The position numbers and the translations under genes were made by a program. Shown piece after piece: positions 8,456 to 25,520 of a DNA stretch of 26,873 nt; position 1 is the first letter of the stretch; the number at the start of each line of letters is the position of its first letter. The notes under the pieces were generated by a model. The model was given only the letters and a program-made list of their open reading frames with translations. It had not been told where the DNA came from and made no database searches. This DNA is from a virus, in IMG/VR virus record IMGVR_UViG_3300042555_003141, positions 1-26,873 of that record. One strand, written 5' to 3'.

Positions 8456-9136
8456 ATGGAATCGAAAAAAGAAACTGTAGATGCTCTTATTGTTCCTGAT
8501 GAAGGACCCAAGAAACCATCGAGAATGTTCAGGGATTTGAAAGAAGGCGATAAGCCATTAATGCCTCTTCCTCCTGACAATATGAGTGATATATCTTATC
8601 CTCAATTCATAGAACCTAGATGTGCGATTTGTACTTCACCATTTAGAGATTTAGTAGAACACGTATATTTAGACAGTGGAAGAAAAAATCAATCGGTAAT
8701 TAGATTTTTCCATCAGTATTTTGATGCACAGATGAACTGGATGCAAATTAATACTCATATGGAACAACACTGTGATTTCAAAAAAATCTCAACTTCTGGT
8801 CTTAAGAACTACGAACAAAGAGAAGAACTTATCGCTCCATGGATTTTTCGTGAACATCAATTAGCCCTTACTGCTTTACTTGTAGAACTTGATGATGTTC
8901 GTGGCATTGACTGCTCTAAAAATAATGACATGAAACTTAAAAGAGCAGCTATGGTTGAGAAATTAATTTCTAAAATTCTCAATGTCAAAGACTCGAGAGA
9001 TAATCGTGGAATCTTTGACATCAATATATTTGAAATTTTAGCTAATCTTCACGAAAAAATGGAAAGTGAAGCAGATAAAAGAATTATCAGAGAAGAAATT
9101 GTAGCTTTGAGAAATAAGATCCAACAAGATAATTAA
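8456..9136 (+). CDS. Probable terminase small subunit with Cys/His zinc site
   Basis: This 226-residue protein lies immediately upstream of the large terminase, sharing one base with it (TAATG). It has a putative zinc-binding helix-turn-helix region: C56-x2-C59 (RCAICTSPFRDLVEH), then a helical segment, then H101-x3-H105 (INTHMEQHCDF). Cys pairs followed by a paired-His recognition helix are compatible with a DNA-binding small terminase. The C-terminal half is helical and charged (MKLKRAAMVEKLISKILNVK; EEIVALRNKIQQDN), suited to oligomerisation. The call rests on position plus a DNA-binding-like architecture; direct similarity to a named TerS family was not recognised. The N-terminal 50 residues are proline-rich and probably disordered. 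Confidence 0.55.
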   Translation: MESKKETVDALIVPDEGPKKPSRMFRDLKEGDKPLMPLPPDNMSDISYPQFIEPRCAICTSPFRDLVEHVYLDSGRKNQSVIRFFHQYFDAQMNWMQINTHMEQHCDFKKISTSGLKNYEQREELIAPWIFREHQLALTALLVELDDVRGIDCSKNNDMKLKRAAMVEKLISKILNVKDSRDNRGIFDINIFEILANLHEKMESEADKRIIREEIVALRNKIQQDN

Positions 9137-11247
9137 TGAGAAAGCCAACTCCAGTCGTTAAATCTTCAAACGAATTACGAAGTCAATTATTACAGCAAGC
9201 AAATTCAGTTACAGAATTATTCAAAGGCACGGAATATGCCGAAGATTTTGTAGATGAAATTGCTCCTGCTACAAGACAAGAAGTAGCACCTCCAGTCAAA
9301 CCTCCTAAAGACAGATTTAACCCTGACCAAATTGTAGACATTATTACATTTATTGAACATCCATATTTTTGTAATCTAAGACCTTATCCTTGGCAAAAAC
9401 TTATACTTAAATGTTTTTATATGGGGCAAGAAGGCAATACTAACCTTGTAATAAATGAATCTGACAATCAAGAAGATTGCAAAGGATGTGTTTGGGATTA
9501 TATCCAAAAGAACGAAAATGAATTTTTAAAAGCCCGTGCAGAAAAAAGACAATTCAAAACAATTTTCAATGTCGTCAATTCACCTTGTCTTCAATGTAAG
9601 CGTCTTAAAAATGAAGTTAGAGATGAAAGATATAAATTTGCAAAAGATGAAGCAACTAACCCAGATGCTGAAAGACAAGTTGAGGTATTAGAAGCAAGAC
9701 CAATAATTGATGCTTTTCAAAGTGAATTCGACTTACTTTATTCCGAAGAATTTGACCCAAAATTAAGGATGCAAGTTCAAGAAAAATGCAAAAAAAGATA
9801 TAAATTTGAAGAATTAGTTTTAGTGCTTGGCAGACGTTCGGGTAAGTCATTCCTTGTGTCTGCTATGGCTCTTTATGAATTATATAGATTGATTTCTATG
9901 GGTCACCCTCAAGCTAGATATGGCTTGATGGAATTTGATGAAGTTGTTCTTCTCAATGTTGCTCGTAATGAAGAACAGGCTAAAAAAGCAATCTTCTCAA
10001 AAATCAAACAAACAGTTCTAGCTTCTCCATTCTTTGCTCCTTATATTGGCAAAGATACAGAGCTTGAAATGCGATTTTATACAGAACATGATAGAGAAGA
10101 GAATGTAAGAAGAAAAGAGCAAAATATCAATCTTTTTGCGGGTTCTTTGGTATTGCGATGTGGTAGTAGTAATGCTTCAGGTCTTGTTGGTTTAACTTGT
10201 TGGGCAATTATTATGGACGAAGTTGCTGCTATGGCTGGAGATAATCCTGAATCTGGTGTTGACTACGCTCTTTATGATGACTTAAAGCCATCTCTTGCTA
10301 CATTTGGTAAAGATGGCAAAATGATGCTTCTTTCCAACCCTAAAGGTCCTCTTGGGTTGTTATATGATCTTCACGAAAATAGACAAGAAGATCCAACAAC
10401 TCTTGTGATGAGACTTCCTACTTGGCTTACAAATCCAAACATTGACAAAGAATGGTTGGATGGGCAAAAGAAGAAAGATCCTCAAGAATTTCAGATGCAG
10501 TATGGAGCTGAATTTGGTGCTTCATCCTCTGACCCTATGTTTAATTCTGAAGATATAGACAGAATGTTCGCTTCAATGTCTATGGTCAAAAGAAAAGAAA
10601 TGGCAGAGGGACATTTTGAATATTTTTGCCACTTAGACCCTGCCAGAACGTCAGACTACTACGCTCTTGTAATTGCTCATACTGAAAATATGTATGGTCA
10701 AATTGGGCCTGATTTTCAACCACTCAAAAGAGTTGTGATTGATCATGTACATTTTTGGAATCCTAAAACTAAAAATCAACCTGTAAAAGAAAGCGAAGTT
10801 GAAGATTATGTAATCGATTTACATCATAAATTCAAATTCAAGCAAGTTTCTATTGATCAATGGAATTCTCAATCATCATTAATTAAATTGCAATCAAGAA
10901 GAGTCCCAATTGTAGAGCGCCAATTTAATAAAGAATACAAGGAAAAAATTTACACTGAATTATCACAATTAATCCGTGATGACCGAATTGATATTTATGA
11001 TTTGCCTGGTGGAGAATATAGAGATTTAGATAATAGGCTTATATCTTTAAATGAAATACAAGAAGCAAAAATTCAATTTTTATTTTTGCAGAAAAAATGG
11101 AAAGGCAAAAGATATTACATTGAGGCACTTTCTGGATATAAAGATGATATTTGTGATGCAGTCGCTGCTGTAGCATTTGAATGCTTAACATCTAAAATTA
11201 TGATTAGATTGCCAAGATCAAAAATGGTCAATTTAAATAGAAGATAA
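9136..11247 (+). CDS. terL: Terminase large subunit (packaging ATPase-nuclease)
   Basis: The DNA-packaging motor has 703 residues. ATPase motifs are the adenine-binding PYPWQKLILKCF (about 84-94), Walker A LGRRSGKSF (231-239), Walker B WAIIMDE (356-362, E362 catalytic) and the coupling motif LLSNPKG (398-404). The RNase H-like nuclease follows, with D501 (HLDPARTSDYYA), D574 (VSIDQWNSQS) and D671/D674 (YKDDICDAV). The protein is longer than a typical 500-600 residue TerL because of an insertion of about 130 residues between the adenine-binding motif and Walker A. This insertion contains two CxxC pairs, C115/C118 and C151/C154, forming a likely zinc knuckle followed by a charged helix. The N-terminal 60 residues look disordered. 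The gene is coupled to the candidate small subunit, and the portal lies about 7.6 kb downstream. Confidence 0.95.
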   Translation: MRKPTPVVKSSNELRSQLLQQANSVTELFKGTEYAEDFVDEIAPATRQEVAPPVKPPKDRFNPDQIVDIITFIEHPYFCNLRPYPWQKLILKCFYMGQEGNTNLVINESDNQEDCKGCVWDYIQKNENEFLKARAEKRQFKTIFNVVNSPCLQCKRLKNEVRDERYKFAKDEATNPDAERQVEVLEARPIIDAFQSEFDLLYSEEFDPKLRMQVQEKCKKRYKFEELVLVLGRRSGKSFLVSAMALYELYRLISMGHPQARYGLMEFDEVVLLNVARNEEQAKKAIFSKIKQTVLASPFFAPYIGKDTELEMRFYTEHDREENVRRKEQNINLFAGSLVLRCGSSNASGLVGLTCWAIIMDEVAAMAGDNPESGVDYALYDDLKPSLATFGKDGKMMLLSNPKGPLGLLYDLHENRQEDPTTLVMRLPTWLTNPNIDKEWLDGQKKKDPQEFQMQYGAEFGASSSDPMFNSEDIDRMFASMSMVKRKEMAEGHFEYFCHLDPARTSDYYALVIAHTENMYGQIGPDFQPLKRVVIDHVHFWNPKTKNQPVKESEVEDYVIDLHHKFKFKQVSIDQWNSQSSLIKLQSRRVPIVERQFNKEYKEKIYTELSQLIRDDRIDIYDLPGGEYRDLDNRLISLNEIQEAKIQFLFLQKKWKGKRYYIEALSGYKDDICDAVAAVAFECLTSKIMIRLPRSKMVNLNRR

Positions 11248-12274: not shown

Positions 12275-12286
12275 AGGTTCAAAATC

Positions 12287-12745
12287 ATGAATGCTAAATC
12301 AATTCAAACAATTATAAAAATATGTTCAAGATTGGATAAATCTGGCGAATACTTAAAGTCAGATAAGTTGTTTGAAAAAATTGCACAATATTATCCACAG
12401 CAATCAATAACTCAATCTCCAAATGTTTCTTTGGTTCCATATGAGGAAATAGAAGAAGAAACAAAACAAAATGACTATTGGAGACAAAAAATAAATCCTA
12501 GAAAAGTTCCAAAAGAATATATGGATTTGGGTGGAGAAGCTGATGGTGCAAATATAGAAGGACAATTACATGGTCCTGATAATGTTCCTGGTCCTGCTTA
12601 TGTAGACCCAGGTAATCCAGCATCAAGCCCATCTATGGCAATTCATAGCGGAGCTGATTTGTGCGATAAATTTTCTTGGGAAGAAACCTATCAGAAAAAT
12701 GTTGATGAAGGAAATGGTTGGAAAAATAGATTACCAATTAGATAA
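12287..12745 (+). CDS. Hypothetical protein with N-terminal LDxxG-SD motif
   Basis: This 152-residue protein follows a Shine-Dalgarno-like AAAGG. Residues about 5-33 (IIKICSRLDKSGEYLKSDKL, then FEKIAQYYP) repeat the LDxxGxxxxADxxxxxxA pattern at the start of the protein at 473. The rest is proline- and glycine-rich (GQLHGPDNVPGPAYVDPGNP) with a short C-terminal helix containing WEETYQKNVDEGNGW. There is no catalytic motif. A small virion or adaptor protein whose N-terminal helix hairpin contacts a common partner is possible, but unproven. Confidence 0.65.
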   Translation: MNAKSIQTIIKICSRLDKSGEYLKSDKLFEKIAQYYPQQSITQSPNVSLVPYEEIEEETKQNDYWRQKINPRKVPKEYMDLGGEADGANIEGQLHGPDNVPGPAYVDPGNPASSPSMAIHSGADLCDKFSWEETYQKNVDEGNGWKNRLPIR

Positions 12746-12759
12746 AGGAATAAAAAATT

Positions 12760-13251
12760 ATGCCTATACCAATTAAGCCAGTACACTCTTTAGATTTGCA
12801 TGCAGAATTATTTGACGGACCATCAATGGAAGGTCTTGGACTTTCTGATATTCAAATTCAACTTCTTGGTGTTTCACAAGCTCCTAAAAAAGCAGAAGCA
12901 GCTAAATTAAGTGAAAAATATTTGGAAATGCTTAAGTCAATTGATGCAAATACAGATGCTTTAGTTACTGCTGCTAGCTATGTTGCTTTACACAAAGACA
13001 GCAAAGTATGTGGAGTTCCTACTGAAATTTCTGATAATGATCTTTTAGCTATGAAAACTGCTGGATTACTTACAGGTTATGGTAGATCTGTAGAATTGAC
13101 TGAAAGAGCAAGATTAGCATTACGTGATCATTATTTGAGCATAGATAATGTTAATGAATTTAGAAAGCAAAGAACCAAAGATAGATTTGATCTTGAAGAC
13201 GCAAGAAGTGTGAAAGCATCTTCAAATAAATTTAAAAAAGTTGGTTCATGA
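12760..13251 (+). CDS. Hypothetical protein; ends in a TGA followed by an in-frame DUF192 extension
   Basis: This 163-residue protein has an AAAGGA Shine-Dalgarno 8-9 nt before its ATG. It is mostly helical (LSEKYLEMLKSIDANTDALV; LTERARLALRDHYLSIDNV), contains a short conserved-looking segment SDNDLLAMKTAGLLTGYGRS and ends in a basic tail. No family is recognised. Its stop is TGA in the context TCA-TGA-CTC. The same frame then continues without interruption into a complete DUF192 domain (13252-13632), so a readthrough product of 163 residues plus one recoded residue plus 126 residues is possible. TGA followed by C is known as a leaky context in bacteria. Confidence 0.72.
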   Translation: MPIPIKPVHSLDLHAELFDGPSMEGLGLSDIQIQLLGVSQAPKKAEAAKLSEKYLEMLKSIDANTDALVTAASYVALHKDSKVCGVPTEISDNDLLAMKTAGLLTGYGRSVELTERARLALRDHYLSIDNVNEFRKQRTKDRFDLEDARSVKASSNKFKKVGS

Positions 13252-13326
13252 CTCACTAATGAAGAATTCCGTGATGAATTCGATGTTAGGTTTGTAGCAG
13301 ATACTGATAAATTACGAAGTAAAGGA
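13249..13326 (+). other. TGA stop and startless N-terminus of the DUF192 domain
   Basis: After the TGA at 13249-13251 the frame reads 25 codons with no ATG, GTG or TTG before 13327. These codons encode FDVRFVADTDKLRSKGL, which matches the first strand and the RxxGLM motif expected at the DUF192 N-terminus. ATG codons at 13248 and 13259 are in other frames and stop after 3 and 12 codons respectively. This is a candidate readthrough segment, or the scar of a mutated start or fused gene. Confidence 0.6.
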
Positions 13327-13632
13327 TTGATGCATGCAGAACCTTTGGGAGAATATGAAGTAGTTTATTTTACTTTTGATTATCCTGATTGTTATTCTTT
13401 TTGGAATAAGAATGTGTCATTTCCACTTTCTTTAGCTTTTTTAGACAAAAATCATAAGATTGTGGACTTTAAAGATATGGAAGCAGATGATCCAAAATCT
13501 GTTTCTCCAGATTCTAACAACGTTGTATTTATTGTAGAAGCAAATAAAGGCTTGTTTAAAAAACTAAAGATTGGTATTGGAGACAAATTGCTCTTGAAGG
13601 GCAAGAAACTAATTTTGAGTAAAAAAACATAA
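13327..13632 (+). CDS. DUF192 domain protein
   Basis: The first usable start codons are TTG 13327 and ATG 13330, giving about 101 residues. The domain is recognisable from FWNKNVSFPLSLAFLDKNHK (counterpart of FWMKNTxIPLDIAFLD), IVDFKDME, SPDSNNVVFIVEANKG and LKIGIGDKLLL (counterpart of GIKVGDxV). DUF192 is a small beta-barrel of unknown biochemical role, found in bacteria, archaea and many phages. Starting at 13327 cuts off the first strand and begins inside the GLM motif, so this form would be truncated; the full domain reaches back to 13252 with no start codon. An AAAGGA directly before the TTG is too close for efficient use. Either the protein is made as a readthrough extension of the 12760 product, or the gene is damaged. 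Confidence 0.72.
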   Translation: MMHAEPLGEYEVVYFTFDYPDCYSFWNKNVSFPLSLAFLDKNHKIVDFKDMEADDPKSVSPDSNNVVFIVEANKGLFKKLKIGIGDKLLLKGKKLILSKKT

Positions 13633-13693
13633 ATAGATGCATTAAAGGAATTTGAGCATTAAATTTAGAAATTTTCTTAATGTATTTTTTCTT

Positions 13694-13699
13694 GAGGAG
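13694..13699 (+). promoter_or_regulatory. Strong Shine-Dalgarno (GAGGAG) before 13711
   Basis: GAGGAG lies 11 nt before the ATG at 13711 and is the strongest ribosome site in the window, suggesting high translation of the next gene. The rest of the 13633-13710 gap is AT-rich with no clear promoter. Confidence 0.55.
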
Positions 13700-13710
13700 A
13701 AAAATTAATT

Positions 13711-14781
13711 ATGGCAGATAGAATTTTCCCAAACAGATTTCAAGAAGATCCTCTTGATTCTGACTTGGTTTTCCAAGGAATTGATTGGGACAACTTTAAC
13801 CAAAGATTAGCTGAAGCCAAAGAGCCTAAAGAGAACAAGGGTCTCAAAGCTCTTATCGACGCTATTGGTGATGAAGAAGTCGATAGATTACAAGGCGAAG
13901 ATCACGATGATCATGACGCTGAATCTGGGATGGATCACAAATCAGGTATGGGCAAAGAAGCCAAGAAAGGTCTTCCAGAAGGCTTGAGAAAGTGGATGGA
14001 AGAGAATGGCAAGGGCAAGAAGAAGTCTGAAGATTCTGAAGATGAAGATGAAGACGAAGGTCATGATGATGAAGAAAAAGCTGACAAAGGTCCTATGAAG
14101 AGAAAAGGTCCTAAGTCTAAAGCTGAAAAGAAGGCTTTTCACTTCAACCATGCATCACAATTATCAGCTGAAGCAGTAGAAGCTGCTGTAGCTGCTGGTG
14201 ATGAAGATCTCAAGAATGCTATCCTTGCTGCTCGTCATGATAGAAGAGTCAGATTAGCTGGCAAAATCGAGCGCCAAGTACAAGCACAACAAGAGGCAAA
14301 TGTAAAGCTTGCACAAAGAAAAGCTTACAGAGAATCCTTGGTTCAAAGAGTTGCTGAAAAGATGGAAGAAAAGAAAGAAGCAGCTATGGACAAAGAATGT
14401 GAAAAATGTGGCGGAGTTTATGCTGGCAAAAAATGTGAATGCGGAAAGGATTCAGAAATGAAGGAAGTTAAAGCATTCTCATCTGCTGCAAGAAGAGCAT
14501 TTGCTGCTAAGGCTTTAGCAGAAGGTTTCCCAATTGAGTATGTAAATGCTAGATTAGGCGAAACATCCACACCTGAAGTTGACAATTTATCCGATATCAA
14601 GAATGTTCTTGCTTCTGGCCTTGAAACAAATGTAAAGGTTGCTGCAGCTTCTTCAATGATCAAAGTTGCAACCCTTTCAGATGCAGACTATTCCAGAATT
14701 ATTGATTACTGGAAAAATGAACTTGGTTATGGTGATCAAGAGTGGATTGATGCACTCTTCACCAAGAAATACGACAAGTAG
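13711..14781 (+). CDS. Acidic/basic low-complexity protein with zinc knuckle
   Basis: This 356-residue protein has the strongest Shine-Dalgarno in the window and the only TAG stop. Residues about 60-145 are charged low complexity (DHDDHDAESG; EDSEDEDEDEGHDDEEK; KRKGPKSKAEKK). A long helical stretch follows (about 150-225, RRVRLAGKIERQVQAQQEAN), then a Cys cluster C230-x2-C233-x8-C242-x-C244 (CEKCGGVYAGKKCECG) likely to bind zinc. The C-terminal 100 residues contain KVAAASSMIKVATLSDADYS and end in WKNELGYGDQEWIDALF. High predicted expression, charge segregation and helix content would suit a scaffold or internal head protein, but no family is recognised. The gene is followed by a large hairpin and stands as its own unit. 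Confidence 0.72.
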   Translation: MADRIFPNRFQEDPLDSDLVFQGIDWDNFNQRLAEAKEPKENKGLKALIDAIGDEEVDRLQGEDHDDHDAESGMDHKSGMGKEAKKGLPEGLRKWMEENGKGKKKSEDSEDEDEDEGHDDEEKADKGPMKRKGPKSKAEKKAFHFNHASQLSAEAVEAAVAAGDEDLKNAILAARHDRRVRLAGKIERQVQAQQEANVKLAQRKAYRESLVQRVAEKMEEKKEAAMDKECEKCGGVYAGKKCECGKDSEMKEVKAFSSAARRAFAAKALAEGFPIEYVNARLGETSTPEVDNLSDIKNVLASGLETNVKVAAASSMIKVATLSDADYSRIIDYWKNELGYGDQEWIDALFTKKYDK

Positions 14782-14793
14782 TAAAAATAATCC

Positions 14794-14837
14794 TCAAGAA
14801 AAATAGTCCCAGGGCTTTTGCCCTGGGACATTCTTGA
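14794..14837 (+). terminator. Bipartite hairpin after the 13711 gene
   Basis: The core stem is GTCCCAGGGC (14806-14815) with GCCCTGGGAC (14820-14829) and a TTTT loop, all ten pairs matched. An outer arm TCAAGAA (14794-14800) pairs with TTCTTGA (14831-14837) across an asymmetric internal loop (AAATA opposite A). There is no long U tract, so it may be a weak terminator or an mRNA-stabilising 3' end rather than a classical terminator. Confidence 0.7.
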
Positions 14838-14848
14838 AAAGTAACAAC

Positions 14849-14852
14849 AGGA
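14849..14852 (+). promoter_or_regulatory. Shine-Dalgarno (AGGA) deciding the start at 14861
   Basis: AGGA lies 8 nt before the ATG at 14861. The alternative TTG at 14834 lies inside the hairpin arm and has no ribosome site, so 14861 is preferred. Confidence 0.55.
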
Positions 14853-14860
14853 TAATAAAC

Positions 14861-15676
14861 ATGAGCAGATTTAGAAAAGTATCAGAAATCGAAAATATTC
14901 CAACATTCTTGGAAAAGAGATTCATTGGCGCTCAAGTTGAAGTTGAAGAAGATCCTTATGCAGAGTTAAAAAGAAATTCTACGGCCAACAGACAGTCAAT
15001 CTCTAAACAAAATATTGGTTTTACAAAAGAAGCAAATAATATCAATAAATCTTGGGAAAAAATTCAAGGTCCATCTACTTATCAAGACTTAAGAGAAACC
15101 TCTATGGAAGAAAGAATTTTATCACAGGATTTTGGTGCAATCAGAAGAGCTGGATCACAATTTGATTCTGGTGAGACTGCAAGAACTACAACTAGTGGTT
15201 TAAAAGCATTTTCAGCAGATGAATATATGAATGCAATGTTGTCAAGATCTGCTTCTATTTTCAACCCTGATATGATTGCAATTTCTGAAGAATTCTTGAA
15301 TTCTCAATCTTCTACAAGCGAGCAATCGATTATTGAAAATCAAAGAGTAAGAGAAGCTAAAGCAACTCGTCATAAAGCTTGGGAAGAAAGCCAAATAAAT
15401 AACTTGAGACAATCTTCTGTAGTTTCCTCAAGAGCACATTCAATCTTAAGAACATCATCTGACAATGAATTCAATTCTACATTTGGAATGATAGATCCAT
15501 CTGCTCTGGATTCTAGAGAATCAATGAGAATTGCAAATCAAGAAAAGATCAGAAATGAAAGATTAGCAATTAAGAAAAATATTCAAAATGACATGAACAG
15601 TAAATCTCTAAATAGAGCTAAAACTGTTAATGAAATTTATAATAGTATTGACATAAACTTTGACGATTTAGATTAA
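14861..15676 (+). CDS. Hypothetical Ser/Asn-rich virion-module protein
   Basis: This 271-residue protein, counted from the ATG at 14861, is not recognised. It is rich in Ser, Asn, Gln, Arg and Glu with little hydrophobic core (RNSTANRQSISKQNIGF; SSTSEQSIIENQRVREAK). Two more ordered patches are the N-terminus FRKVSEIENIPTFLEKRFIG and ADEYMNAMLSRSASIFNPDM. The C-terminal 60 residues form a charged helix ending in an acidic DINFDDLD. It shares one base with the next gene (TAATG), so the two are translated together. It is probably an extended structural or assembly protein. Confidence 0.68.
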   Translation: MSRFRKVSEIENIPTFLEKRFIGAQVEVEEDPYAELKRNSTANRQSISKQNIGFTKEANNINKSWEKIQGPSTYQDLRETSMEERILSQDFGAIRRAGSQFDSGETARTTTSGLKAFSADEYMNAMLSRSASIFNPDMIAISEEFLNSQSSTSEQSIIENQRVREAKATRHKAWEESQINNLRQSSVVSSRAHSILRTSSDNEFNSTFGMIDPSALDSRESMRIANQEKIRNERLAIKKNIQNDMNSKSLNRAKTVNEIYNSIDINFDDLD

Positions 15677-16665
15677 TGAATAAACTGTCTCAAATTGAAC
15701 CACCTTTAGCTTCAAATCCTGCAAATGGGATTAACAATATTCCCTTGAGTGGTGAAAATGCCGAAGGTGTAACCAAAGATGAAATGAGACAGTTGATGAA
15801 CAAGGTCAAATCTGCTAATGAGAACTACGGTGAACTTTCAGATGAAGTTACTGTCATAGCAGACAGAGTGCAAGATGAAAGCTTAAGACATCAATTATAT
15901 AAGTTATCTAAAGCACTAATTATGTCAAATAATAGTAGAACAAGAACTAAAGATCCAATTACTCAAGAATTAGATCCAAGCTATTCTGATATAGCGAATA
16001 AGATTGAAGAAACTTATTTATCCGAGGCTAAAAACGTGTACAACAATTCAAAAACAGCACAGGTCAAAAAGAAAAAGAAAACTAGAGGCAATCCATTCCG
16101 TGTTTTAATGGGTAAAGTGGGTAAATTGCTTGATCACGGTGTCGAAAAGAACGATATTGTTAGATACATTTCAAAACTCAAGTACTGGAATAAAGAGACA
16201 ATTGAACGTGCTGTAGATATTGTTAAAGAATACAACAAAAAACTAGAGCAAGGCAAAGATAAAGAAGAAAAACCAAAAAAATCTAAAAAAACTGCCAATG
16301 TTGTGGATCTTGAAAGATTACTTGACAAACAAGAAGAAGTCGAGAAAGAAACTAAAGATGTTGAAGAAACAATAGAGCAGATAAATGATACTGAAGAAAA
16401 AGGTAACAAGAATGCTTCAGTAAAAACTGCAGCTTTTGATTATAATGCAAAACCAAATTTTGAAAAAAGATCTACGCCTGAGTTGATTATGAGAGCTTGT
16501 TTTCTTATGGATTTACAAGATTACTCCAAAACAACCAAACAAGGTGATTTCAAAGATGCTGCAGATAAAAAAGGCGTATCAGAAGAATTAAAACAAATTA
16601 AGGCAGCACTTCAGGATAGAGGTTTTGATAAAGAAGAATTATCAAACTTAGGATTGGGTAAATAA
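15676..16665 (+). CDS. Hypothetical Lys/Glu-rich helical virion-module protein
   Basis: This 329-residue protein starts by overlapping the previous stop by one base. An N-terminal proline/asparagine segment leads into helices (TKDEMRQLMNKVKSANENYG). The most ordered part is about residues 130-190: a basic KKKKKTRGNPFRVLM, then GKLLDHGVEKNDIVRYISKL and a helix with NKETIERAVDIVKEYNKK; this block looks like a folded helical domain. A highly charged coiled-coil-like region follows (LLDKQEEVEKETKDVEETIE). The C-terminal 80 residues contain SVKTAAFDYN and PELIMRACFLMDLQDYSKTT. It has three K-T-A motif copies. No function is recognised. Confidence 0.7.
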   Translation: MNKLSQIEPPLASNPANGINNIPLSGENAEGVTKDEMRQLMNKVKSANENYGELSDEVTVIADRVQDESLRHQLYKLSKALIMSNNSRTRTKDPITQELDPSYSDIANKIEETYLSEAKNVYNNSKTAQVKKKKKTRGNPFRVLMGKVGKLLDHGVEKNDIVRYISKLKYWNKETIERAVDIVKEYNKKLEQGKDKEEKPKKSKKTANVVDLERLLDKQEEVEKETKDVEETIEQINDTEEKGNKNASVKTAAFDYNAKPNFEKRSTPELIMRACFLMDLQDYSKTTKQGDFKDAADKKGVSEELKQIKAALQDRGFDKEELSNLGLGK

Positions 16666-16667
16666 TT

Positions 16668-18323
16668 ATGGACAAAGGATATAAAATCAAAGCTACATAC
16701 GAGACACACGATCCTGAAAAAATTGAAAAGATTTTAGAAAAAAAATCAGAAGTTGGTGGTAATGGATTGCTTCGTATGCTTCAAGATACTTTATCAGGTC
16801 TTGGAGATGGAGATTCTATGCCAATGTCTTCTCCATTTCACGTTTTAGGAATGGATGATTTTGGTGATGATCCAGTAATTTCAGCCTTCAAAAATATGGG
16901 TGGTCCTGAGCACATTATGAAGATAGTAGCTCTTCCAAAAAAAGATGCACATCATCATTTACATCAGGCATTTAATAATTTAAACAATATTAGAGTTGCT
17001 GAAGAAAGAAATACTCTCCGTTATGCATATATGGCTATTCAAAATTTCTTGAACAAAGATAATGAAGCAGCTAGAATGGAAAGAGTTGCTTACAAGAATA
17101 GTGAAAAGTCATCAGGTTTTTGGCAAATTGAAACGATTAATACACTTGATAAACTTACAGCATTTTGTTCTTCAGAAATTAGACTTAGCAAAATTGCAAA
17201 TGCTAGAAAAATTGTTTTGTCAGGAAACAAAAACTTAGCTGTCAAAATTGCAAACTATTTACACAATTGGTATTCAGAAATCACACCAAAAGAAAATAGA
17301 AGAGTTGCATATACAACTTTATTTACACAAGCCAATGAGCCTTATTTATTGTGTCCTAAAGGAAAAATGCAAGGATACAAAGCTCCAATTCCTATGGAAA
17401 TATCCAAGTGTAGAGAAAATTGTATAGACTCAAGAGTTGGCAAAGATGGAACTGTAACTTGTGCATATCAAGATTGGCTTAAAGTTGCTTTCCAATCTCA
17501 TGATGAAGTTATGGCTAGACTTGATGTTCATAAGCATCCTGATAATGAAGCCAATGCTCTTGAACTTAAGGAAGGCGAAAGATCCAAAAAACTCACTGAA
17601 GGTGAAATTGGATTTGAAGCTAGATTTGACAATTCTGATAGGGGCGCTAATAAAATCAGAGGCAAACAAAATGTCGATGATTCAATGGAAAAACAATTGT
17701 CAGATGCCAAGCAATCCAGTTATGGCCATCAACAAGGCGACAAGCCTGTTATGCGCCCTAAACAAGCTCAATCTGATTCTTTGAAAACAATTGACTCACA
17801 ACTTCCTAGAAAAGAACAAAAAGGCACAGAATACCTTGAAGCTTTATTGAGAAAATTGAATAACCAAGAATCTGTTACTGATGAAGTACTAGAAGATCAA
17901 CTTGATTCTGATGGACTTTATACTCATCGTGGTGAAATGGAAGAATCTTATGCTGATCAATTGAATGTCAACGGTAAAGATCCAATCAATTACAGAGATG
18001 AATTGAACAAAGACAAAGCTGAACCAAAAGAATCCATTATTCAACAGTTAGATAAGACTGCATCCAAAAAAGAACTTAATCAAGAGCAAATTCTTGGTGA
18101 AACAAGAAAGAAAAATATAGTTGATGTTCCTATGGATAAACAACTAGAAGATACAAGACAAAACAAGAAGATCACTGTTAATATCGAAACTTTATTGAAT
18201 GACGAAGACGAAGATAGCTTTGGTCATCAATTTTCAGATGATGATCTTAAGAAATTTGCTGATGAACTTGGTTTAGATTACATCATGGAATCTAAAAGAG
18301 AAGAATACGACGATGTGGTATAA
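16668..18323 (+). CDS. Hypothetical virion-module protein with Cys cluster and QL repeats
   Basis: This 551-residue protein begins 2 nt after the previous stop. Residues 1-220 are helical (HHHLHQAFNNLNNIRVAEER; RKIVLSGNKNLAVKIANYLH). A Cys cluster C229, C248, C252, C265 (YLLCPKGK, KCRENCIDSR, VTCAYQDWL) looks like a zinc-binding module. From about residue 340 to 495 the sequence is polar and carries at least seven copies of a degenerate xxQL element (EKQLSDAKQ, DSQLPRKEQ, EDQLDSDG, ADQLNVNG, RDELNKDK, QQLDKTAS, DKQLEDTRQ) spaced about 15-35 residues apart. The next protein has a related copy. The C-terminus is acidic. It overlaps the next gene by 11 nt. Function unknown; the repeats may be docking peptides for a multimeric partner. 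Confidence 0.72.
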   Translation: MDKGYKIKATYETHDPEKIEKILEKKSEVGGNGLLRMLQDTLSGLGDGDSMPMSSPFHVLGMDDFGDDPVISAFKNMGGPEHIMKIVALPKKDAHHHLHQAFNNLNNIRVAEERNTLRYAYMAIQNFLNKDNEAARMERVAYKNSEKSSGFWQIETINTLDKLTAFCSSEIRLSKIANARKIVLSGNKNLAVKIANYLHNWYSEITPKENRRVAYTTLFTQANEPYLLCPKGKMQGYKAPIPMEISKCRENCIDSRVGKDGTVTCAYQDWLKVAFQSHDEVMARLDVHKHPDNEANALELKEGERSKKLTEGEIGFEARFDNSDRGANKIRGKQNVDDSMEKQLSDAKQSSYGHQQGDKPVMRPKQAQSDSLKTIDSQLPRKEQKGTEYLEALLRKLNNQESVTDEVLEDQLDSDGLYTHRGEMEESYADQLNVNGKDPINYRDELNKDKAEPKESIIQQLDKTASKKELNQEQILGETRKKNIVDVPMDKQLEDTRQNKKITVNIETLLNDEDEDSFGHQFSDDDLKKFADELGLDYIMESKREEYDDVV

Positions 18324-18855
18324 GCAAGTTTTAGCCCAAATTGGTGGTGGCGTCAATTTGTCAGGAGAAAAGCCTCTTGACACTATTGATTCAACATCAA
18401 ATTCTAAAATAGATGAAATTCATGATGTAGACAATGAGCCTGCAGGACTTTATGATGAACTTGCTGGCATTTTAGATAAAATGGGCAAAACTCTTGATCA
18501 ATATTACAATATGAATCAAGAACAACAAAAAGAAATTTGGGATCTCTTGGTTCAACGGCCTCATAGAATGAATATGGATAATAATGGACAATTTATTATT
18601 TCCCCTCAATCTGCATCTATAGAAGCTCGTAGACACTCTCCATATCATGATGCGCCTGAAGTCACAACATTAGAAGATCAATTGGAAGGCTCAAGACAGC
18701 AAAACAATAATAGAGATCCACAAAGTATGGGTTCAATTGAAAAAGGAAATAGCTTTCAACATTTTAAGAATGGTGAAGGATATTATCAAGCATTAAAAGG
18801 TAAACAAGACCCTATCCTTTTCGGTAATAAACCATCCAATCAAACTTGGTATTAA
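18313..18855 (+). CDS. Hypothetical protein starting MWYK, upstream of portal
   Basis: This 180-residue protein overlaps the previous gene by 11 nt. It starts MWYKQVLAQIGGG, similar to the MWYSKIIE start of the minus-strand peptidase. One folded-looking helical segment is present (about residues 43-78: GLYDELAGILDKMGKTLDQY, then QQKEIWDLLVQRP). The rest is polar, including TTLEDQLEGSRQQNN, which matches the QL repeat of the upstream protein, and it ends NQTWY. This sharing suggests the two act with the same partner. No known family. Confidence 0.68.
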   Translation: MWYKQVLAQIGGGVNLSGEKPLDTIDSTSNSKIDEIHDVDNEPAGLYDELAGILDKMGKTLDQYYNMNQEQQKEIWDLLVQRPHRMNMDNNGQFIISPQSASIEARRHSPYHDAPEVTTLEDQLEGSRQQNNNRDPQSMGSIEKGNSFQHFKNGEGYYQALKGKQDPILFGNKPSNQTWY

Positions 18856-18873
18856 GTTCTATTTTTATAGAAC
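18856..18873 (+). other. Inverted repeat between 18313 gene and portal promoter
   Basis: GTTCTAT (18856-18862) and ATAGAAC (18867-18873) flank TTTT, starting right after the stop codon at 18853-18855 and ending 2 nt before the TATAAT box. It is short and AT-rich, so it is more likely an operator-like or weak terminator element than a strong terminator. Confidence 0.4.
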
Positions 18874-18875
18874 GG

Positions 18876-18881
18876 TATAAT
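18876..18881 (+). promoter_or_regulatory. -10 box (TATAAT) 7 nt before the portal start
   Basis: A perfect TATAAT ends 7 nt before the ATG at 18889, with no -35 hexamer at 16-18 nt and no Shine-Dalgarno. Geometry predicts a leaderless or near-leaderless portal mRNA. Confidence 0.45.
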
Positions 18882-18888
18882 ATATGTT

Positions 18889-21258
18889 ATGGCAAATAGA
18901 ACATCATTGGCTTCTGCTATCAGAACAGCAGCAACACAAGTATCAGGAGCACCAACAAGCACAACTACTGTAGAGAGAAATTATGCAAGTAGTCGAATTG
19001 GTCTAGGATTAGGACCAAGCGTCACTAGAACTGCAAGCATAAACACAGTTACTACAGCTCCTAACTTCTATTCACCATTTCTTACTCCATCATCGTTTCA
19101 AATCCCAAATGCTCGACGTGAAGTTTATCTTTGGGCAAACTGGTGGAGAAACAATGAACCAAAAATTGCTGCAGCCATTAATTTCTATACTAACTATCCT
19201 TTCTCTGGATGGAAATTAGAATGTTCTTCATCTTACGTAAAAGATTACTTTGAAAAGTTAGTAGAATCTCTTAACTTTCAAAAATGGCTGCCAGAAATTT
19301 CCAAAACATATCACTTATTAGGTGATTCTTTTGTGCTCCTTTCATTGGACTGCCCACATTGTCATGGATCTAACTGGGATGATGACAAAAATCAAGAATG
19401 TCAACATGATGGTGCTACTTGGAAATCAATTTCAATTCTTAATCCAGATTCTGTAATTAAAACTCCAGGAATGATTGATCAAGCTGGAAGCTATGCTTAT
19501 CGACCATCTGCTGAAGAAATAAGAATTGTAAACGAAAGAAATCCTAAAGAAATTTACGATTCAATTCCTGACAACATCAAAAAGATGATTATTCAGGGTA
19601 ATCCAATTAAGTTGAATCCTATTTCTATCCACCATTTTAAGTATGGATCAAACCCATGGGAAGATTATGGAATTTCTATGATTCGCCCATTATTTCCAAT
19701 CTTAACTTACAAAGATAAATTACGTCAAGCACAATATATGATTGCAGAACGTCTTATCTTACCAATCAAGGTTGTAAAGATTGGTAGTGATACAAGACCA
19801 GCATCACAAGAAGATATTGACAACGTGCAAGATGAATTGGCATCTATTGCCAATGATCCAAACTTGACTCTTGTTACTCACCACAATTTTGATCTTGAAT
19901 GGTATGGAGCTACTGGTAAAATTCATCCTCTAACTGGTGAATTTGAACTTATTGAACAAGAAATCTTAGACGGCGTTATGCTCAACAAAGCTCTGTTGAA
20001 TGGTGAGGGCCCAACTTATGGAAACGCTCAAGTTGGACTTCTTGCAATGGCTCAAAGATTAGAGACATTTAGAAGAGAAGTAGCCCATTGGATTGAACAA
20101 AATGTTTTCATGCCAGTTGCAAAATGGAATGGCTTTGTAATTGAAGGCGAGAGAGGACAAGACGAATTAGTCTATCCAAAAATCAAATTTGATGATCTGC
20201 AATTGCGTGATGATACTGGTAAGTTGCAAATGCTTGTCACTGCAAATCAAAATGGAGTGATTTCCAACGTTTCATTGATTGAAGCTTTCGGGCTTGACTC
20301 TGATCAAGAAATTGAAAGACTTAGATTTGAACAAGGTGCAAACTTTGTAAATGATCAATCTTTTGGTACTCCTAATGTTTCATTAAGTTTTCAGAGTGGT
20401 GGTGTTACTGGGCAAGGTTTTGGAGCAGCAACACCCAATGCATCTGCTGGTATTGAAGGAATGCCACCTCCTGCTGATCTTTCAGTTGGTGGTACGCCTC
20501 CTGCTGGTGGTGCTCCACCTCCTGCACCTGCCGCTCCAGGAGCTGCACCTACAGCTTCTGTAATGAATAAGTTCTACAAAGTTGCTAGTTCTACAATTAA
20601 TGAAATTTACACTGAAAGAATAGAGGCAAAAAATTCAGGCGTAAGAACTGCTAGCAAGAAAATCAAATCTGCAGCCCATGAAGGTTTCTTGAAATCATTA
20701 ACTCCAGTAACAGGCAGAGGATCATTAGGTCCTTTACCAGATGAATATGATGGATTATTCGGCACTTTGTATATACCAATTATGGGTGGTGATAATTCTC
20801 ATCCATTAAATAATTATGCTCTAGAAGAGATTTATCAATTTGCCAGCAACGAAAACGATTCAATAAAAAAATATGCAAAAAAGAAAGTAGATGTTTCTCA
20901 GCAACCAAAAATGTTTACTAATCTTGAAAAGAAACTTTATGGACTGATGATGTCTTTAAACATGCCTTTTCCCTTATATGCACAATATTCTGCTGGTCCT
21001 ACAATGGATTATCAACTAGATGCAGCTATTCCAAACTTGAAACTTGGAATTGAGGCAGATGGTGAAATTTGGCATAATAACCCAGACAAAATTGCAAAAG
21101 ATAAACGTAGAGATTCTGAATTGGCTGCAAATGGCTGGATTATCATCAGATTTACAGATAAAGAATTGAATGATCATCCTCAAGATTGTTTAAACGTGTT
21201 AATTAAAGTAATTAAGCGAAGAACAGGTATGGGAGAGGGTAATTCGGAATATCTATAA
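18889..21258 (+). CDS. Portal protein fused to a C-terminal Vsr/DUF559-like endonuclease domain
   Basis: The 789-residue protein has a portal region at about residues 60-490: LWANWWRNNEPKIAAAINFY, YPFSGWKLEC, HLLGDSFVLLSLD, then SIHHFKYGSNPWEDYGISMI, IAERLILPIKVV and EGPTYGNAQVGLLAMAQRLE, typical of the clip, stem and crown order of large-phage portals. A Cys/His insertion (C155, C158, C171, H173) sits in the wing. A Pro/Gly/Ala linker (about 495-555) leads to a C-terminal module. Residues about 676-778 fit a PD-(D/E)XK nuclease: NLEKKLYGLM (E680), YQLDAAIPNLKLGIEADGEIWH (D711, E722, D724, H729), DKRRDSELAANGW and IIIRFTDKEL. This pattern is the DUF559/Vsr core, with catalytic residues kept. 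A portal carrying a nuclease is unusual. No intein splice motifs were seen, so it reads as one continuous fusion. Confidence 0.85.
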   Translation: MANRTSLASAIRTAATQVSGAPTSTTTVERNYASSRIGLGLGPSVTRTASINTVTTAPNFYSPFLTPSSFQIPNARREVYLWANWWRNNEPKIAAAINFYTNYPFSGWKLECSSSYVKDYFEKLVESLNFQKWLPEISKTYHLLGDSFVLLSLDCPHCHGSNWDDDKNQECQHDGATWKSISILNPDSVIKTPGMIDQAGSYAYRPSAEEIRIVNERNPKEIYDSIPDNIKKMIIQGNPIKLNPISIHHFKYGSNPWEDYGISMIRPLFPILTYKDKLRQAQYMIAERLILPIKVVKIGSDTRPASQEDIDNVQDELASIANDPNLTLVTHHNFDLEWYGATGKIHPLTGEFELIEQEILDGVMLNKALLNGEGPTYGNAQVGLLAMAQRLETFRREVAHWIEQNVFMPVAKWNGFVIEGERGQDELVYPKIKFDDLQLRDDTGKLQMLVTANQNGVISNVSLIEAFGLDSDQEIERLRFEQGANFVNDQSFGTPNVSLSFQSGGVTGQGFGAATPNASAGIEGMPPPADLSVGGTPPAGGAPPPAPAAPGAAPTASVMNKFYKVASSTINEIYTERIEAKNSGVRTASKKIKSAAHEGFLKSLTPVTGRGSLGPLPDEYDGLFGTLYIPIMGGDNSHPLNNYALEEIYQFASNENDSIKKYAKKKVDVSQQPKMFTNLEKKLYGLMMSLNMPFPLYAQYSAGPTMDYQLDAAIPNLKLGIEADGEIWHNNPDKIAKDKRRDSELAANGWIIIRFTDKELNDHPQDCLNVLIKVIKRRTGMGEGNSEYL

Positions 21259-21285
21259 TTATAGAATAGTTTGTCACTGTACAAT

Positions 21286-21309
21286 AAACCCGTCGATTTC
21301 GACGGGTTT
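21286..21309 (+). terminator. Rho-independent terminator after portal
   Basis: AAACCCGTCG (21286-21295) pairs perfectly with CGACGGGTTT (21300-21309) around an ATTT loop, followed by AAATTTTAC. It separates the portal from the protease gene, which then has its own Shine-Dalgarno (AAGGA at 21371-21375). Confidence 0.8.
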
Positions 21310-21383
21310 AAATTTTACAGGTCTTAATAGGTCAAAAATAGAACAAATCCTATTGATAACTTTATTTTTTAAGGATTGAATAT

Positions 21384-24300
21384 ATGTACAAGGTTGCAAA
21401 AGGTGGAGCTATAACAATAAATAGTTTCCTCAACGAAAATGACCGAAATATAGCTAGAGATTATATTATCAAGACTGCTTCTTCAAATATGAGAGAGGCA
21501 GCAAAAATCGGTCTTCAATCTCTCTATGCAGATCCAAAAGAAGTCCTAGAAAAATACAAAGATTTCGATATTGTCAGAGAAATGCAAGCACGTAAAGGTG
21601 CTAAATTGCTATGGGTAAGAGCTAGAGCCATAGATGCTGACGTAGTAAATGCAAATGGTGACTTATTTTCCAAAGAAGAATTACTCAAAGAAACTGAAAT
21701 TAAAGGCAAGAAAATTCCAGCCTACAAAACTTTTGAAGGCGTTCCTATCTATACAAACCACAAGAATGATGATATCGAGCAAGCAAAAGGAATGGTTGTA
21801 TATGCAGAGTGGGACGAAAAAGAAGACTGTGTGTATTGTACTTTCTTTGTAGATGAAGAAGCTTATCCAGATATTGCTAGAAATATCCGCACTGGTGTAA
21901 TCCATGACGTTTCTATGGGAGCAAGTGTTGAATGGGGCGTTTGTTCGGTTTGTGGAAATAAAGCCTATACCGAAAGAGATTATTGTGAACACCTCAAAAA
22001 ATATAAAGGGAAAATTTACCCTGAATCAGGCAAAAAAGCATATGAGAAAAACTACGGAGTAAAGTTCATTGAGCTTTCTTGTGTTGGTGATGGTGCTTTT
22101 GAATCTTGTGAAATTCAAGAAATATATGATGTAGATGACGTTCTTGATGCAGCGACAAATTTAGAGAAAAAAGCAAATGAAATTTCTTCAAATATTGTAT
22201 TGGCTCTTCAAGGTGCTCCACATGACAATATCTCAAGACCTGAATATGAAAATTGTCTAAGAGTTGCAAATGCAACTGCCAAAACAGCAGTAAGACTAGC
22301 TCAACAAGCTGGGACATTAGTTGGTGGGCCTTTACTAGCAGGGCAGGGTGCAAATCAGAATTCTACTGTTGCAGCTGTTCTTGGCGCATTAGGTATTGAT
22401 CCAAGATCTGGCCTTAATATCTTGGACTTGATCAATTTATCACTAAACTTCCTTGAAGTAGCAGTTATGAATATGTTTGCCCGAAAAGACAATGTAGATC
22501 TTGGACATGTTGGCAAAGTTACAAAATCAATGGCTGAACTTCAATCAACAATGCAAGACATGATTGACGACGGTGTTGATGTTGGTAGTGGTCAAAGACC
22601 TCAACAAATAAATCAACCTCAAAATTTACAACAAGGACAAGCCCCACAAGCTTCTCCGATGAATGCCAATGTTGGTTTGGCAAATTATGCACCAACTGAA
22701 TCTGTTGGAAAAGTAATGGATCTTACTTATTCTGAAGATCAAGATAGTCAGGTTGGAGGCGGAGTTGCATTAGCCTCTAGCTCGCACAATTTGGTATGGG
22801 CTTCAAGAGATGGTAAAAGAGAAGTTTTTGCTAGTACTCAAAGCAGTTCATCTTCCAATAAAATTTTGAATTTATCTCAAAGCATATTAAATTTGAAAAA
22901 TAATTTAAGTGACAATTCAGAAATTCAAAAAAGTATTGATAATGTCATTAGGGTTGCTAATGAAAGAAGCAAAAATATAAAAACAAATACGCCTTTCGTG
23001 GCGGGGAGCAGAAATCAAATGGATCACTTTGCAAAGATTGCATCAGAGCAAAGAAAAAAACTTGCTGCTGCAGTTACAATCGATTTTAAAGTCGAGGATA
23101 ATGCAGGTAATAGAGTTGTTCTTTCTACTGATGGTTCGATTACAGGTTACACAAATGGAAAAAGAACTGCTTGGGAACCTATCCTTAATGAAAACCAAAT
23201 TGGTTTAATGGAAAATGGACAAGGAACAAGAGTTGCTGCTGATTTACTCAAGGACTACTCACAATTTGTCAAGACTGCTTTACTTGATGTCAAAGAAAGA
23301 CTTGATGAAAGAGAAAGACAACTTGATGAAGTTAGAAGTGGTGAGTCATATGATAACTTGGTTGATGGCGTTAAGAGCAAGAATACTGGTGTTATCAATC
23401 AAGTTCGTGAACTTACTCTTAAATCAAAACAAACAGGTGCAAGCCAAGATGCAGTCAAGGAAATTCTTCTTGGAGATGCTGGACTTTATGGCAGAAGAGT
23501 CAAGGATGAAGAAGTTTGCAAGTCCTTAACTGAATTGGTAGATGAAGTAACTCATGGTGTTCCAACTGAAGTTTTAGAAAAACAATTAGCTTGCTGCCGT
23601 ACAGAGGGCTCTGCAAGTGCTCACGAAATTATGGCTGCTACAATCAATGCCTTGGGCAAGGCTGTAATTTCATCGCTTGAAACTCCTAAGACAATTGTTA
23701 GAGTTGCGCAAACATTAGCTGAAGAACCAATGCTTCCTGAAATGATTGGAACTGCTGCTGCTGGAACTGATATGGAAGCAGATAAAGCAGAAAAGGTTGA
23801 TTTCTTTGGTGGCAATGCTGAACCAGAAAATTCTGTATCTGCAATTCTCAAGCAATTAGGTGCAGCTGTTACTTCAGAAGTAACAGCTCAAGATCTTGCT
23901 GATGCACTTTCAGTTGCCGTTGAAGAAGGCGAGATGACCAAAGAAGGTGTTTCAAGAATTGCTGAACTTCTTATGGGACAAGCTTCTGTTCCTGAAGAAG
24001 GACTAGACGTAGAGACTGCTCCTTCTAAAAATGAAGAACTTAAGTCTGCTTTAATGTCAGCTGTAGATGCTGATGCTGATCTTATTTCAAAAGATGATCT
24101 TAAGTCTGCAATTTCTGCAATGGCAATGTCATCAAAAGAAACTGGAACAACTCCTGATGAAGTAGTTGATTCTGTTGAAGCAATGCCAGAAAAACAATTG
24201 ATGGCTGCTATTGATAGAGCTAAAACTGCAACTGCAACTGATGGCAGATTAAGAGCTAGAGCAAGAAGAGAATTCTGGGGCGTAAAGACTGCTTCAACAA

Positions 24301-25520
24301 AGAATATTTCTGATAATGTTGTTGGATGGTTGGCAGACTACTCAACAAACTTTGGCATCAGCACAAGAAGAATTGCTAAGGCTGCAAAGAGACTTTGTGA
24401 AGAATTTGAAGTTGCAGAAAAATTAGTTGCAAAAGCTGTAATTGCTTCTGAAAGAACAGCTGGTATGACTGTTACCCAAAGCAAGTCAGATTGCATCAGA
24501 TTTATCTGTAGATCTGAAGACTTAGATGGTATGCAACCTAGTGACAGCAACTTTGATGATTCATTCAAGCAAAAAGCAATTGAAGTTCTTCAAGGACATG
24601 GCTTCCAAGTAGATCCAGGTACTTTCTCTTTCACTGACTTAATTGTATCAGAAAATGGTGATGTAACTGCAACAGTATCAACATCATCTTCAAAGACTTT
24701 CAAGACAGATGAAGCAGATGGCGAAATGAATGCCGAAATTACAGAAGAAATGCCTGTAATTATGACCGAAGGTGCTAGACTTGCTAGAAAGAATCGTAGA
24801 GACTCTATTCTATCAAAATATGCACAAGTTGCCCCAGGTATGGGTGCTCCTGCTCCAGCCGGTCCTGCTGCAGGTCCTGTTGATCCAGGTATGGGTGCTG
24901 GCGCTCCTGGTGGTGGTGATTTAGGAATTTCTTCATTGACTGGTGGAACAGATATGAACGCATCTGAAGATATGGATGCTATTGCTGAGCCAGGTGAAAA
25001 GAAACCATGGGGAAGCGTTTGTCCTGTTTGTGGAGCAGACGATGTAAACATTTCTGAATCAAATGCAGACTGTCAAAGCTGTGGAACAACTTACAAAATT
25101 CTTCAACAAATTGAATTAATTTCAATGGGAGATAAGGGTAAGTCATCAATGGAAGAAGAACCTATGGGATTAGGCCCAGATATGGGTCTTGGAGCTGCTA
25201 CTGCTCCAACTGAAACTCCTACACCTTCTCCAGCAGCTCCAGGCATGGGTCCTGTAGCATCTGAAATCAAAACTATGGTCAGATTATCTGCCACAGTTGA
25301 TTCTGATATATACCTCAAAACTGCACTACCAAACTTTGATAAGACTGCAGTTTCTATGCTTCCTATTGGTATGGTTTGCCCATCATGTGGAAATAGAGAA
25401 GCTCATAAGGTAAAGAATAATACATTCTGTTATAAGTGTGGAAATTACTCTAGAACTAGTGTACATGCATCCAGAAAAGATCCATCAAAGCTTGATGTTT
25501 CTATCACATGGATTGATTAA
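21384..25520 (+). CDS. Prohead maturation protease fused to a long helical region and zinc ribbons
   Basis: The protein has 1378 residues and a good Shine-Dalgarno. Residues about 75-250 form a prohead serine protease: DVVNANGDLFSKEELLKE, H126 in YTNHKND, S177 in HDVSMGASVE, and FIELSCVGDGAFE as the third conserved block. A zinc module C187/C190/C201/H203 (CSVCGN, YCEHLKK) is inserted after the catalytic Ser. Residues about 255-1190 are mostly helical and Ala/Glu/Lys-rich, with scaffold-like composition and a Gln/Pro linker (about 405-430). A PGMGA-type linker follows (two near-identical copies at 24834-24899), then two zinc ribbons: C1213/C1216/C1230/C1233 and C1332/C1335/C1349/C1352. Protease-scaffold fusions are known in tailed phages, but 1378 residues is very long. 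It probably cleaves head proteins, and itself, during capsid maturation. Confidence 0.85.
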   Translation: MYKVAKGGAITINSFLNENDRNIARDYIIKTASSNMREAAKIGLQSLYADPKEVLEKYKDFDIVREMQARKGAKLLWVRARAIDADVVNANGDLFSKEELLKETEIKGKKIPAYKTFEGVPIYTNHKNDDIEQAKGMVVYAEWDEKEDCVYCTFFVDEEAYPDIARNIRTGVIHDVSMGASVEWGVCSVCGNKAYTERDYCEHLKKYKGKIYPESGKKAYEKNYGVKFIELSCVGDGAFESCEIQEIYDVDDVLDAATNLEKKANEISSNIVLALQGAPHDNISRPEYENCLRVANATAKTAVRLAQQAGTLVGGPLLAGQGANQNSTVAAVLGALGIDPRSGLNILDLINLSLNFLEVAVMNMFARKDNVDLGHVGKVTKSMAELQSTMQDMIDDGVDVGSGQRPQQINQPQNLQQGQAPQASPMNANVGLANYAPTESVGKVMDLTYSEDQDSQVGGGVALASSSHNLVWASRDGKREVFASTQSSSSSNKILNLSQSILNLKNNLSDNSEIQKSIDNVIRVANERSKNIKTNTPFVAGSRNQMDHFAKIASEQRKKLAAAVTIDFKVEDNAGNRVVLSTDGSITGYTNGKRTAWEPILNENQIGLMENGQGTRVAADLLKDYSQFVKTALLDVKERLDERERQLDEVRSGESYDNLVDGVKSKNTGVINQVRELTLKSKQTGASQDAVKEILLGDAGLYGRRVKDEEVCKSLTELVDEVTHGVPTEVLEKQLACCRTEGSASAHEIMAATINALGKAVISSLETPKTIVRVAQTLAEEPMLPEMIGTAAAGTDMEADKAEKVDFFGGNAEPENSVSAILKQLGAAVTSEVTAQDLADALSVAVEEGEMTKEGVSRIAELLMGQASVPEEGLDVETAPSKNEELKSALMSAVDADADLISKDDLKSAISAMAMSSKETGTTPDEVVDSVEAMPEKQLMAAIDRAKTATATDGRLRARARREFWGVKTASTKNISDNVVGWLADYSTNFGISTRRIAKAAKRLCEEFEVAEKLVAKAVIASERTAGMTVTQSKSDCIRFICRSEDLDGMQPSDSNFDDSFKQKAIEVLQGHGFQVDPGTFSFTDLIVSENGDVTATVSTSSSKTFKTDEADGEMNAEITEEMPVIMTEGARLARKNRRDSILSKYAQVAPGMGAPAPAGPAAGPVDPGMGAGAPGGGDLGISSLTGGTDMNASEDMDAIAEPGEKKPWGSVCPVCGADDVNISESNADCQSCGTTYKILQQIELISMGDKGKSSMEEEPMGLGPDMGLGAATAPTETPTPSPAAPGMGPVASEIKTMVRLSATVDSDIYLKTALPNFDKTAVSMLPIGMVCPSCGNREAHKVKNNTFCYKCGNYSRTSVHASRKDPSKLDVSITWID

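Follow-up and report, generated by a model that had tools for sequence, protein, structure and literature searches.

The stretch of virus DNA analysed here, called the window (26,873 nucleotides, positions 1 to 26,873 of IMG/VR record IMGVR_UViG_3300042555_003141), was found to encode a phage portal protein that carries a nuclease domain at its C-terminus. This architecture, a portal with a tethered Vsr/EDxHD-type nuclease, is almost certainly real, ancient, conserved and apparently undescribed; the components are of known kinds and the novelty appears to lie in their combination. The usual view of a portal is that of a passive channel and valve. By analogy with the endonuclease VII bound to the T4 portal, the likeliest role of the nuclease would be to clear or cut abnormal DNA on the inner side of the packaging vertex, a reading to which a probability of a little under 0.4 is assigned. 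Taken more widely, the enzyme-portal of these giant phages rather probably serves either as a packaging checkpoint at or inside the capsid mouth or as the carrier of nuclease heads that are released by a protease and delivered at infection; if this is true, either the checkpoint or the delivered nuclease would give the portal a role in the virion that has not been described before.

The portal-nuclease gene and its predicted active site

The initial annotation had proposed a portal protein with a Vsr/DUF559-like endonuclease domain at positions 20914-21225, and both assignments were borne out. The span corresponds to residues 676-779 of a single intact frame of 789 codons, in which the numbering given for E680, D711, E722, D724 and H729 is correct. 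The parts of the gene are as follows.

18889..21258, + strand: portal-nuclease fusion gene, 789 aa, one protein that matches both portal families and DUF559/MTES_1575
19057..20346, + strand: portal core, residues 57-486
20347..20556, + strand: flexible Gly/Pro/Ala-rich linker of low pLDDT, residues 487-556
20557..20898, + strand: middle segment, residues 557-670, weakly conserved in alignments
20899..21228, + strand: Vsr/DUF559 EDxHD-type nuclease domain, residues 671-780
20926..20928, + strand: predicted catalytic E680
21019..21021, + strand: predicted catalytic D711
21052..21060, + strand: predicted catalytic E722 and D724
21073..21075, + strand: predicted catalytic H729
21100..21114, + strand: D738 and D742 (DxxRD), likewise invariant

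The portal core was identified by its conservation and by homology searches, in which PHROGs gave the portal family phrog_16240 (1.3e-32) and the Pfam family Portal_Mu was matched above its cutoff (5.8e-8). The top PDB fold matches of the full-length AlphaFold model in Foldseek were all portals; the model is poor (mean pLDDT 54) and was used for fold identity and linker disorder only. Residues 458-629 have pLDDT below 50 in this model and are predicted to be disordered, so the nuclease would be tethered by a long flexible stretch. The portal core also contains a conserved insert, C155-x2-C158 ... C171-x-H173 (window 19351-19407), which from its residues is probably a zinc ribbon.

The tail matches two Pfam families over residues 704-775, DUF559 (7.9e-7; 29.4 bits against a cutoff of 20.6) and MTES_1575 (2.6e-9; 37.5 bits with the whole protein and 39.3 with the tail alone, against a cutoff of 38.2). 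It is not the Vsr mismatch endonuclease proper, as the NCBIfam vsr cutoff was missed (18.5 against 97.85 bits), and no Pfam match to Endonuclease_7 (PF02945) was found in the tail. The closest solved sequence in the PDB sequence search is the homing endonuclease I-Bth0305I (3r3p, E 1.6e-4). When the tail was modelled with 28 homologues, most of the nuclease reached a pLDDT of 80-90 in the topology a-b-b-b-a-b-a, and the Foldseek matches of this model included 3r3p (E 5e-4, TM by target 0.71-0.75), the DUF559 protein NGO0050 (3hrl, TM 0.85) and Vsr (1vsr and 1cw0, 0.54-0.55). Interspersed with these matches were Vsr-like folds of mitoribosomal proteins, which were read as RAP-type domains; work on FASTKD4 supports the kinship of the RAP domain with the Vsr-like fold (PMC11879112).

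The residues expected for metal-dependent cleavage, which the initial annotation had described as kept in the window, are retained throughout the lineage. E680, D711, E722, H729, D738 and D742 are invariant in 75 of 75 tails, whose nuclease domains are only 25% identical in the most distant pair, and D724 is kept in 74, with one E. The final E of EADGE, E726, is replaced by G in two relatives (L069 and L227); on this comparison it is not essential. The acidic pair of E-x-D is kept almost everywhere, as is H729. Catalytic roles were assigned to single residues from fold and conservation; the tail is a complete and probably active nuclease of the Vsr/DUF559 type. These data bear on an improbable alternative, that the Vsr-like fold is a non-catalytic module which grips DNA or RNA at the vertex in the manner of the FASTKD4 RAP domain. 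The fold is shared by RAP/FASTK proteins, of which FASTKD4 seems to be non-catalytic (PMC11879112), and an active nuclease beside the packaged genome would be hazardous. However, all predicted metal and base residues are retained over the 75 sequences, whereas FASTKD4 has an Asn at the position of Vsr His69 (PMC11879112).

Age, selection and distribution of the fusion

For this lineage of uncultured large phages, scans of IMG/VR with single proteins and with alignments gave 76 complete and distinct portals, on contigs of up to 494 kb. The tail, which the initial annotation had suggested looking for in related phages, is present in 75 of them. In the one that departs from this (contig 3300012000_000088; L059/L120/L383) the linker is interrupted by an in-frame TGA, beyond which the nuclease is still open in the same frame. 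Portals of the lineage without the tail were sought as a natural control, and only contigs that end inside the gene and this one in-frame stop were found. An assembly or frameshift error joining separate genes, named in the initial annotation as a possible source of the fusion, was ruled out because the fusion recurs in these portals on independent contigs.

The median pairwise dN/dS was 0.094 for the core, 0.138 for the nuclease, 0.364 for the linker and 0.444 for the middle segment. Because these pairs share ancestry and are not independent of one another, the contrast between segments is informative and the absolute values less so. The tree distances of core and nuclease were correlated with r 0.955, while the maximum of 999 permutations was 0.470. 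Exactly one DUF559 match per record, at the portal, was found in 17 fusion records, and in seven further records the domain likewise lies in the portal. Carriage in nearly every portal, the kept residues, the low nuclease dN/dS and the congruent trees together indicate that the fusion is old, vertically inherited and selected. The simplest reading of these comparisons is one ancient fusion, retained by selection on a domain that bears the active site.

Inteins or intein-like insertions recur in the lineage. They were seen in the portal (L251, L253, L254, L255 and L257), in the terminase large subunit (TerL) of the records of L134, L169, L171 and L181, and in the head protease (L120, 6732-12035); several relatives carry one to three inteins within the portal core and still keep the tail. 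On an unrelated contig, an intein-like protein (L260, 46-1338) contains a DUF559-like nuclease, and such domains may be spread in this way.

Two alternatives are touched by this pattern of inheritance. It is very unlikely that the tail is a captured homing endonuclease that once spread by cutting portal alleles without it and is now a passenger. The closest solved structure is that of a homing enzyme, inteins abound in the portal, TerL and protease genes of the lineage, and the L260 protein offers a DUF559-type domain in an intein-like setting. However, passenger homing enzymes come, go and decay, whereas this tail is fixed at one site, congruent with the core tree and under strong purifying selection; neither the sporadic spread nor the tree conflict of an active mobile element was seen among the 76 portals. 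Homing-type relatives of the Vsr/EDxHD fold cut rival genomes. This and the many nucleases that phages use in such conflicts (PMC7824862) would suit a cytosolic weapon, in which the late-made portal-nuclease cuts the DNA of the host or of a co-infecting phage before head assembly. That proposal gives no reason for a fusion to the portal, and a fixed, slowly evolving tail speaks against it, so it is regarded as very unlikely, if slightly less so than the captured homing enzyme.

Outside the lineage the combination was not found. Of the 50,697 phage records searched, 230 gave a match to the portal, in no case one that spans portal and nuclease together; a divergent lineage member used as query again gave none over both parts. 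With the tail alone as query, the matches in the phage records were to helicases, methylase neighbours and homing enzymes and none was to a portal, and the portals of Tunturi_5, LR745208, Rctr197k and Vibrio phage D69 showed no nuclease on inspection. No description of a portal-nuclease fusion was found in the open-licence papers that were searched, which is weak evidence of absence. The architecture, in which the initial annotation had seen a possible undescribed packaging or competition system, was met with in none of these records and papers. A fast-turnover competition system is an awkward fit to a tail that is fixed and co-inherited.

In the wider phage G-like group, one portal (L191, 7698-10748) has a different C-terminal extension of about 400 aa with no Pfam match above cutoff and a possible Cys/His zinc site; portal C-termini in this group may accept different modules. 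Bacterial genome scans for a host gave no portal relative, and one nuclease-only match of 28% in an archaeal bin. A prepilin-like protein in a 347-kb fusion phage (L302, 10947-11930, - strand) is a possible host hint, its style being one that we take to be associated with Armatimonadota.

Candidate roles at the packaging vertex and inside the head

In the favoured reading, the gene encodes a portal subunit whose C-terminal, capsid-inner end holds a metal-dependent endonuclease of the Vsr/EDxHD type on a long flexible linker. From general portal biology, the dodecamer would display about 12 nuclease heads around the inner mouth of the DNA channel. These heads may act on abnormal DNA that arrives or stalls in packaging, such as branches, flaps, mismatches or lesions, and trimming or nicking it would let the huge genome be packaged or finished. 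The arrangement would be a covalent version of that in T4, where the resolvase gp49, which is endonuclease VII, is associated with the portal and frees packaging-arrested Y- and X-DNA (PMC10893049; PMC9958956). The T4 portal tolerates C-terminal GFP fusions, and the parts of it that are within the head are the crown, wing and stem (PMC9958956).

The packaging role is favoured by the near-universal fusion, by the residues that stay invariant down to 25% identity, by the constraint on the nuclease and the agreement of the two trees, by the Vsr/I-Bth0305I fold, and by the position of the sole DUF559 match of each fusion record at the portal, with none in phage G. Against it, portal C-termini lie inside the capsid, whereas one would expect DNA to be debranched at the entrance of the channel or ahead of it. 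Moreover, a separate RusA-like resolvase is present in the window's branch, and the terminase has its own nuclease.

9136..11247, + strand: terminase large subunit (TerL; phrog_2, 1.1e-27), own nuclease residues intact

A need for the tail in cutting concatemers, a role that the initial annotation had offered beside degradation of host or rival DNA and proofreading, is not supported. G232RR..K237 and D361/E362 of the Walker A/B motifs and the nuclease residues D501, D574 and D670/D671/D674 of TerL are invariant in 8 of 8 aligned sequences. The position of the tail at the packaging vertex would suit a replacement of the terminase nuclease, but with the acidic triad invariant this candidate was rejected and is hardly credible.

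Replacement of a Holliday resolvase was at first favoured, since no RuvC and no endonuclease VII was found in the 17 fusion records and phage G, whose portal lacks the tail, has a RuvC homologue. The idea was weakened by RusA-like genes, which were matched in 8 of the 17 (the window's branch), including all five of at least 300 kb, with three above the curated cutoff. In the seven records of the second branch there was no RusA, no RuvC and no endonuclease VII above cutoff. Endonuclease_7 (PF02945) was above cutoff in none of 25 records, and T7 endonuclease I gave no match above cutoff. Judged from gene content, the tail is constant and the resolvase content variable, and the tail is not simply the only resolvase. 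A RecA-family recombinase is present in 9 of the 17 fusion records, again including all five of at least 300 kb, which makes branched replication products plausible.

In the packaging reading the nuclease would adjoin the packaged genome, and the enzyme must therefore be selective or gated. The window also encodes an adenylosuccinate synthetase of only 333 aa that keeps the GDEGKGK loop (1127-2128). It matches phrog_1211 (2-aminooxy adenylosuccinate synthetase, 1.7e-68); PurA models fit it better than PurZ, and all NCBIfam models stay below cutoff. Diaminopurine DNA, if these phages use it, could spare self DNA.

The main rival to the packaging role arises from the gene directly downstream and from a short motif.

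21384..25520, + strand: head maturation protease domain (residues about 82-242) followed by a long scaffold-like region; phrog_18299, 4.5e-21
20578..20589, + strand: KVAS (portal residues 564-567), a possible targeting or head-protease motif immediately ahead of the nuclease segment
20644..20655, + strand: RTAS (portal residues 586-589), second copy of the KVAS-type motif

The pattern [KR][TIVLF]A[STAQ] occurs 25 times against 3.8 expected in the head-cluster proteins (window 11282-25520), an enrichment of about sevenfold, and 0 times against 0.8 expected in other genes, being absent from the replication genes and TerL. From these counts it is a candidate recognition signal of the head protease or a capsid-targeting signal. 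At the start of the middle segment, Y-[KR]-x-A (563-566) is kept in 41 of 41 closest portals. Of 48 distinct segments, 37 have a similar motif immediately ahead of the portal core, where shuffled sequences gave 12.5%; relatedness inflates this contrast. The major capsid protein has 284 aa and is without a long propeptide. At the edge of the head cluster lies a 903-aa protein (window 4788-7499, - strand) with the HExxH sequence HEVAHALQY and no Pfam match; this motif is typical of zincin metallopeptidases.

If the motif copies are cleavage sites, the nuclease would be freed inside the head, comparable with the processing of some head proteins in SPN3US. The freed enzyme could then exit with the DNA and attack host or rival DNA, in the manner of MuF-linked toxins or of the internal proteins that giant phages eject. 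This head-borne effector is considered unlikely, though it is well ahead of the other alternatives. The adjacent protease gene and the enriched, well-placed motif speak for it, as do the cleavage of the SPN3US portal and the many ejected proteins packaged by that phage (PMC10052503), and the presence of nuclease domains in more than half of 191 MuF toxins (PMC5576092). However, what the protease recognises has been guessed from counts of the motif, the copy in the linker is eroded in distant relatives while the one before the portal core persists, and effectors usually turn over, whereas this tail is fixed and co-inherited.

A conserved portal nuclease, apparently active and tethered at the inner end, would mean one of two things: that DNA is processed within the packaging machine, or that the head has an effector built into it. 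The fusion offers direct access to the question of how very large phages treat branched or damaged DNA while packaging, and of how a packaged genome can survive with a nuclease beside it. Since portal and nuclease are covalently joined, the T4 portal-resolvase partnership becomes testable in a single polypeptide.

Comparison with known systems

The nearest functional parallel is T4 gp20 with gp49, where a structure-specific nuclease acts at the portal in packaging (PMC10893049, PMC9958956); unlike the fusion, gp49 is a separate protein of unrelated fold (Endonuclease_7, PF02945) with no covalent join. I-Bth0305I, the closest in solved fold and sequence, has a comparable EDxHD catalytic motif, but it is intron-encoded and free-standing, bears a DNA-binding extension and is not a structural protein. 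The DUF559/REase_MTES_1575 proteins such as NGO0050 belong to the same Pfam family above cutoff, with a TM by target of 0.85 for NGO0050, yet they stand alone. The Vsr mismatch nickase shares the fold, whereas the tail scores far under its NCBIfam cutoff. MuF-linked polymorphic toxins are likewise head proteins of the portal neighbourhood with C-terminal nuclease domains (PMC5576092). In contrast, the carrier of the tail is the portal itself, with no MuF family among its Pfam matches at E <= 1, and MuF toxins are highly variable where the tail is uniform. Among isolated phages the closest portal core is that of Bacillus phage G gp14 (28-34% identity), which differs in having 648 aa, a Pro/Gly tail end and no nuclease.
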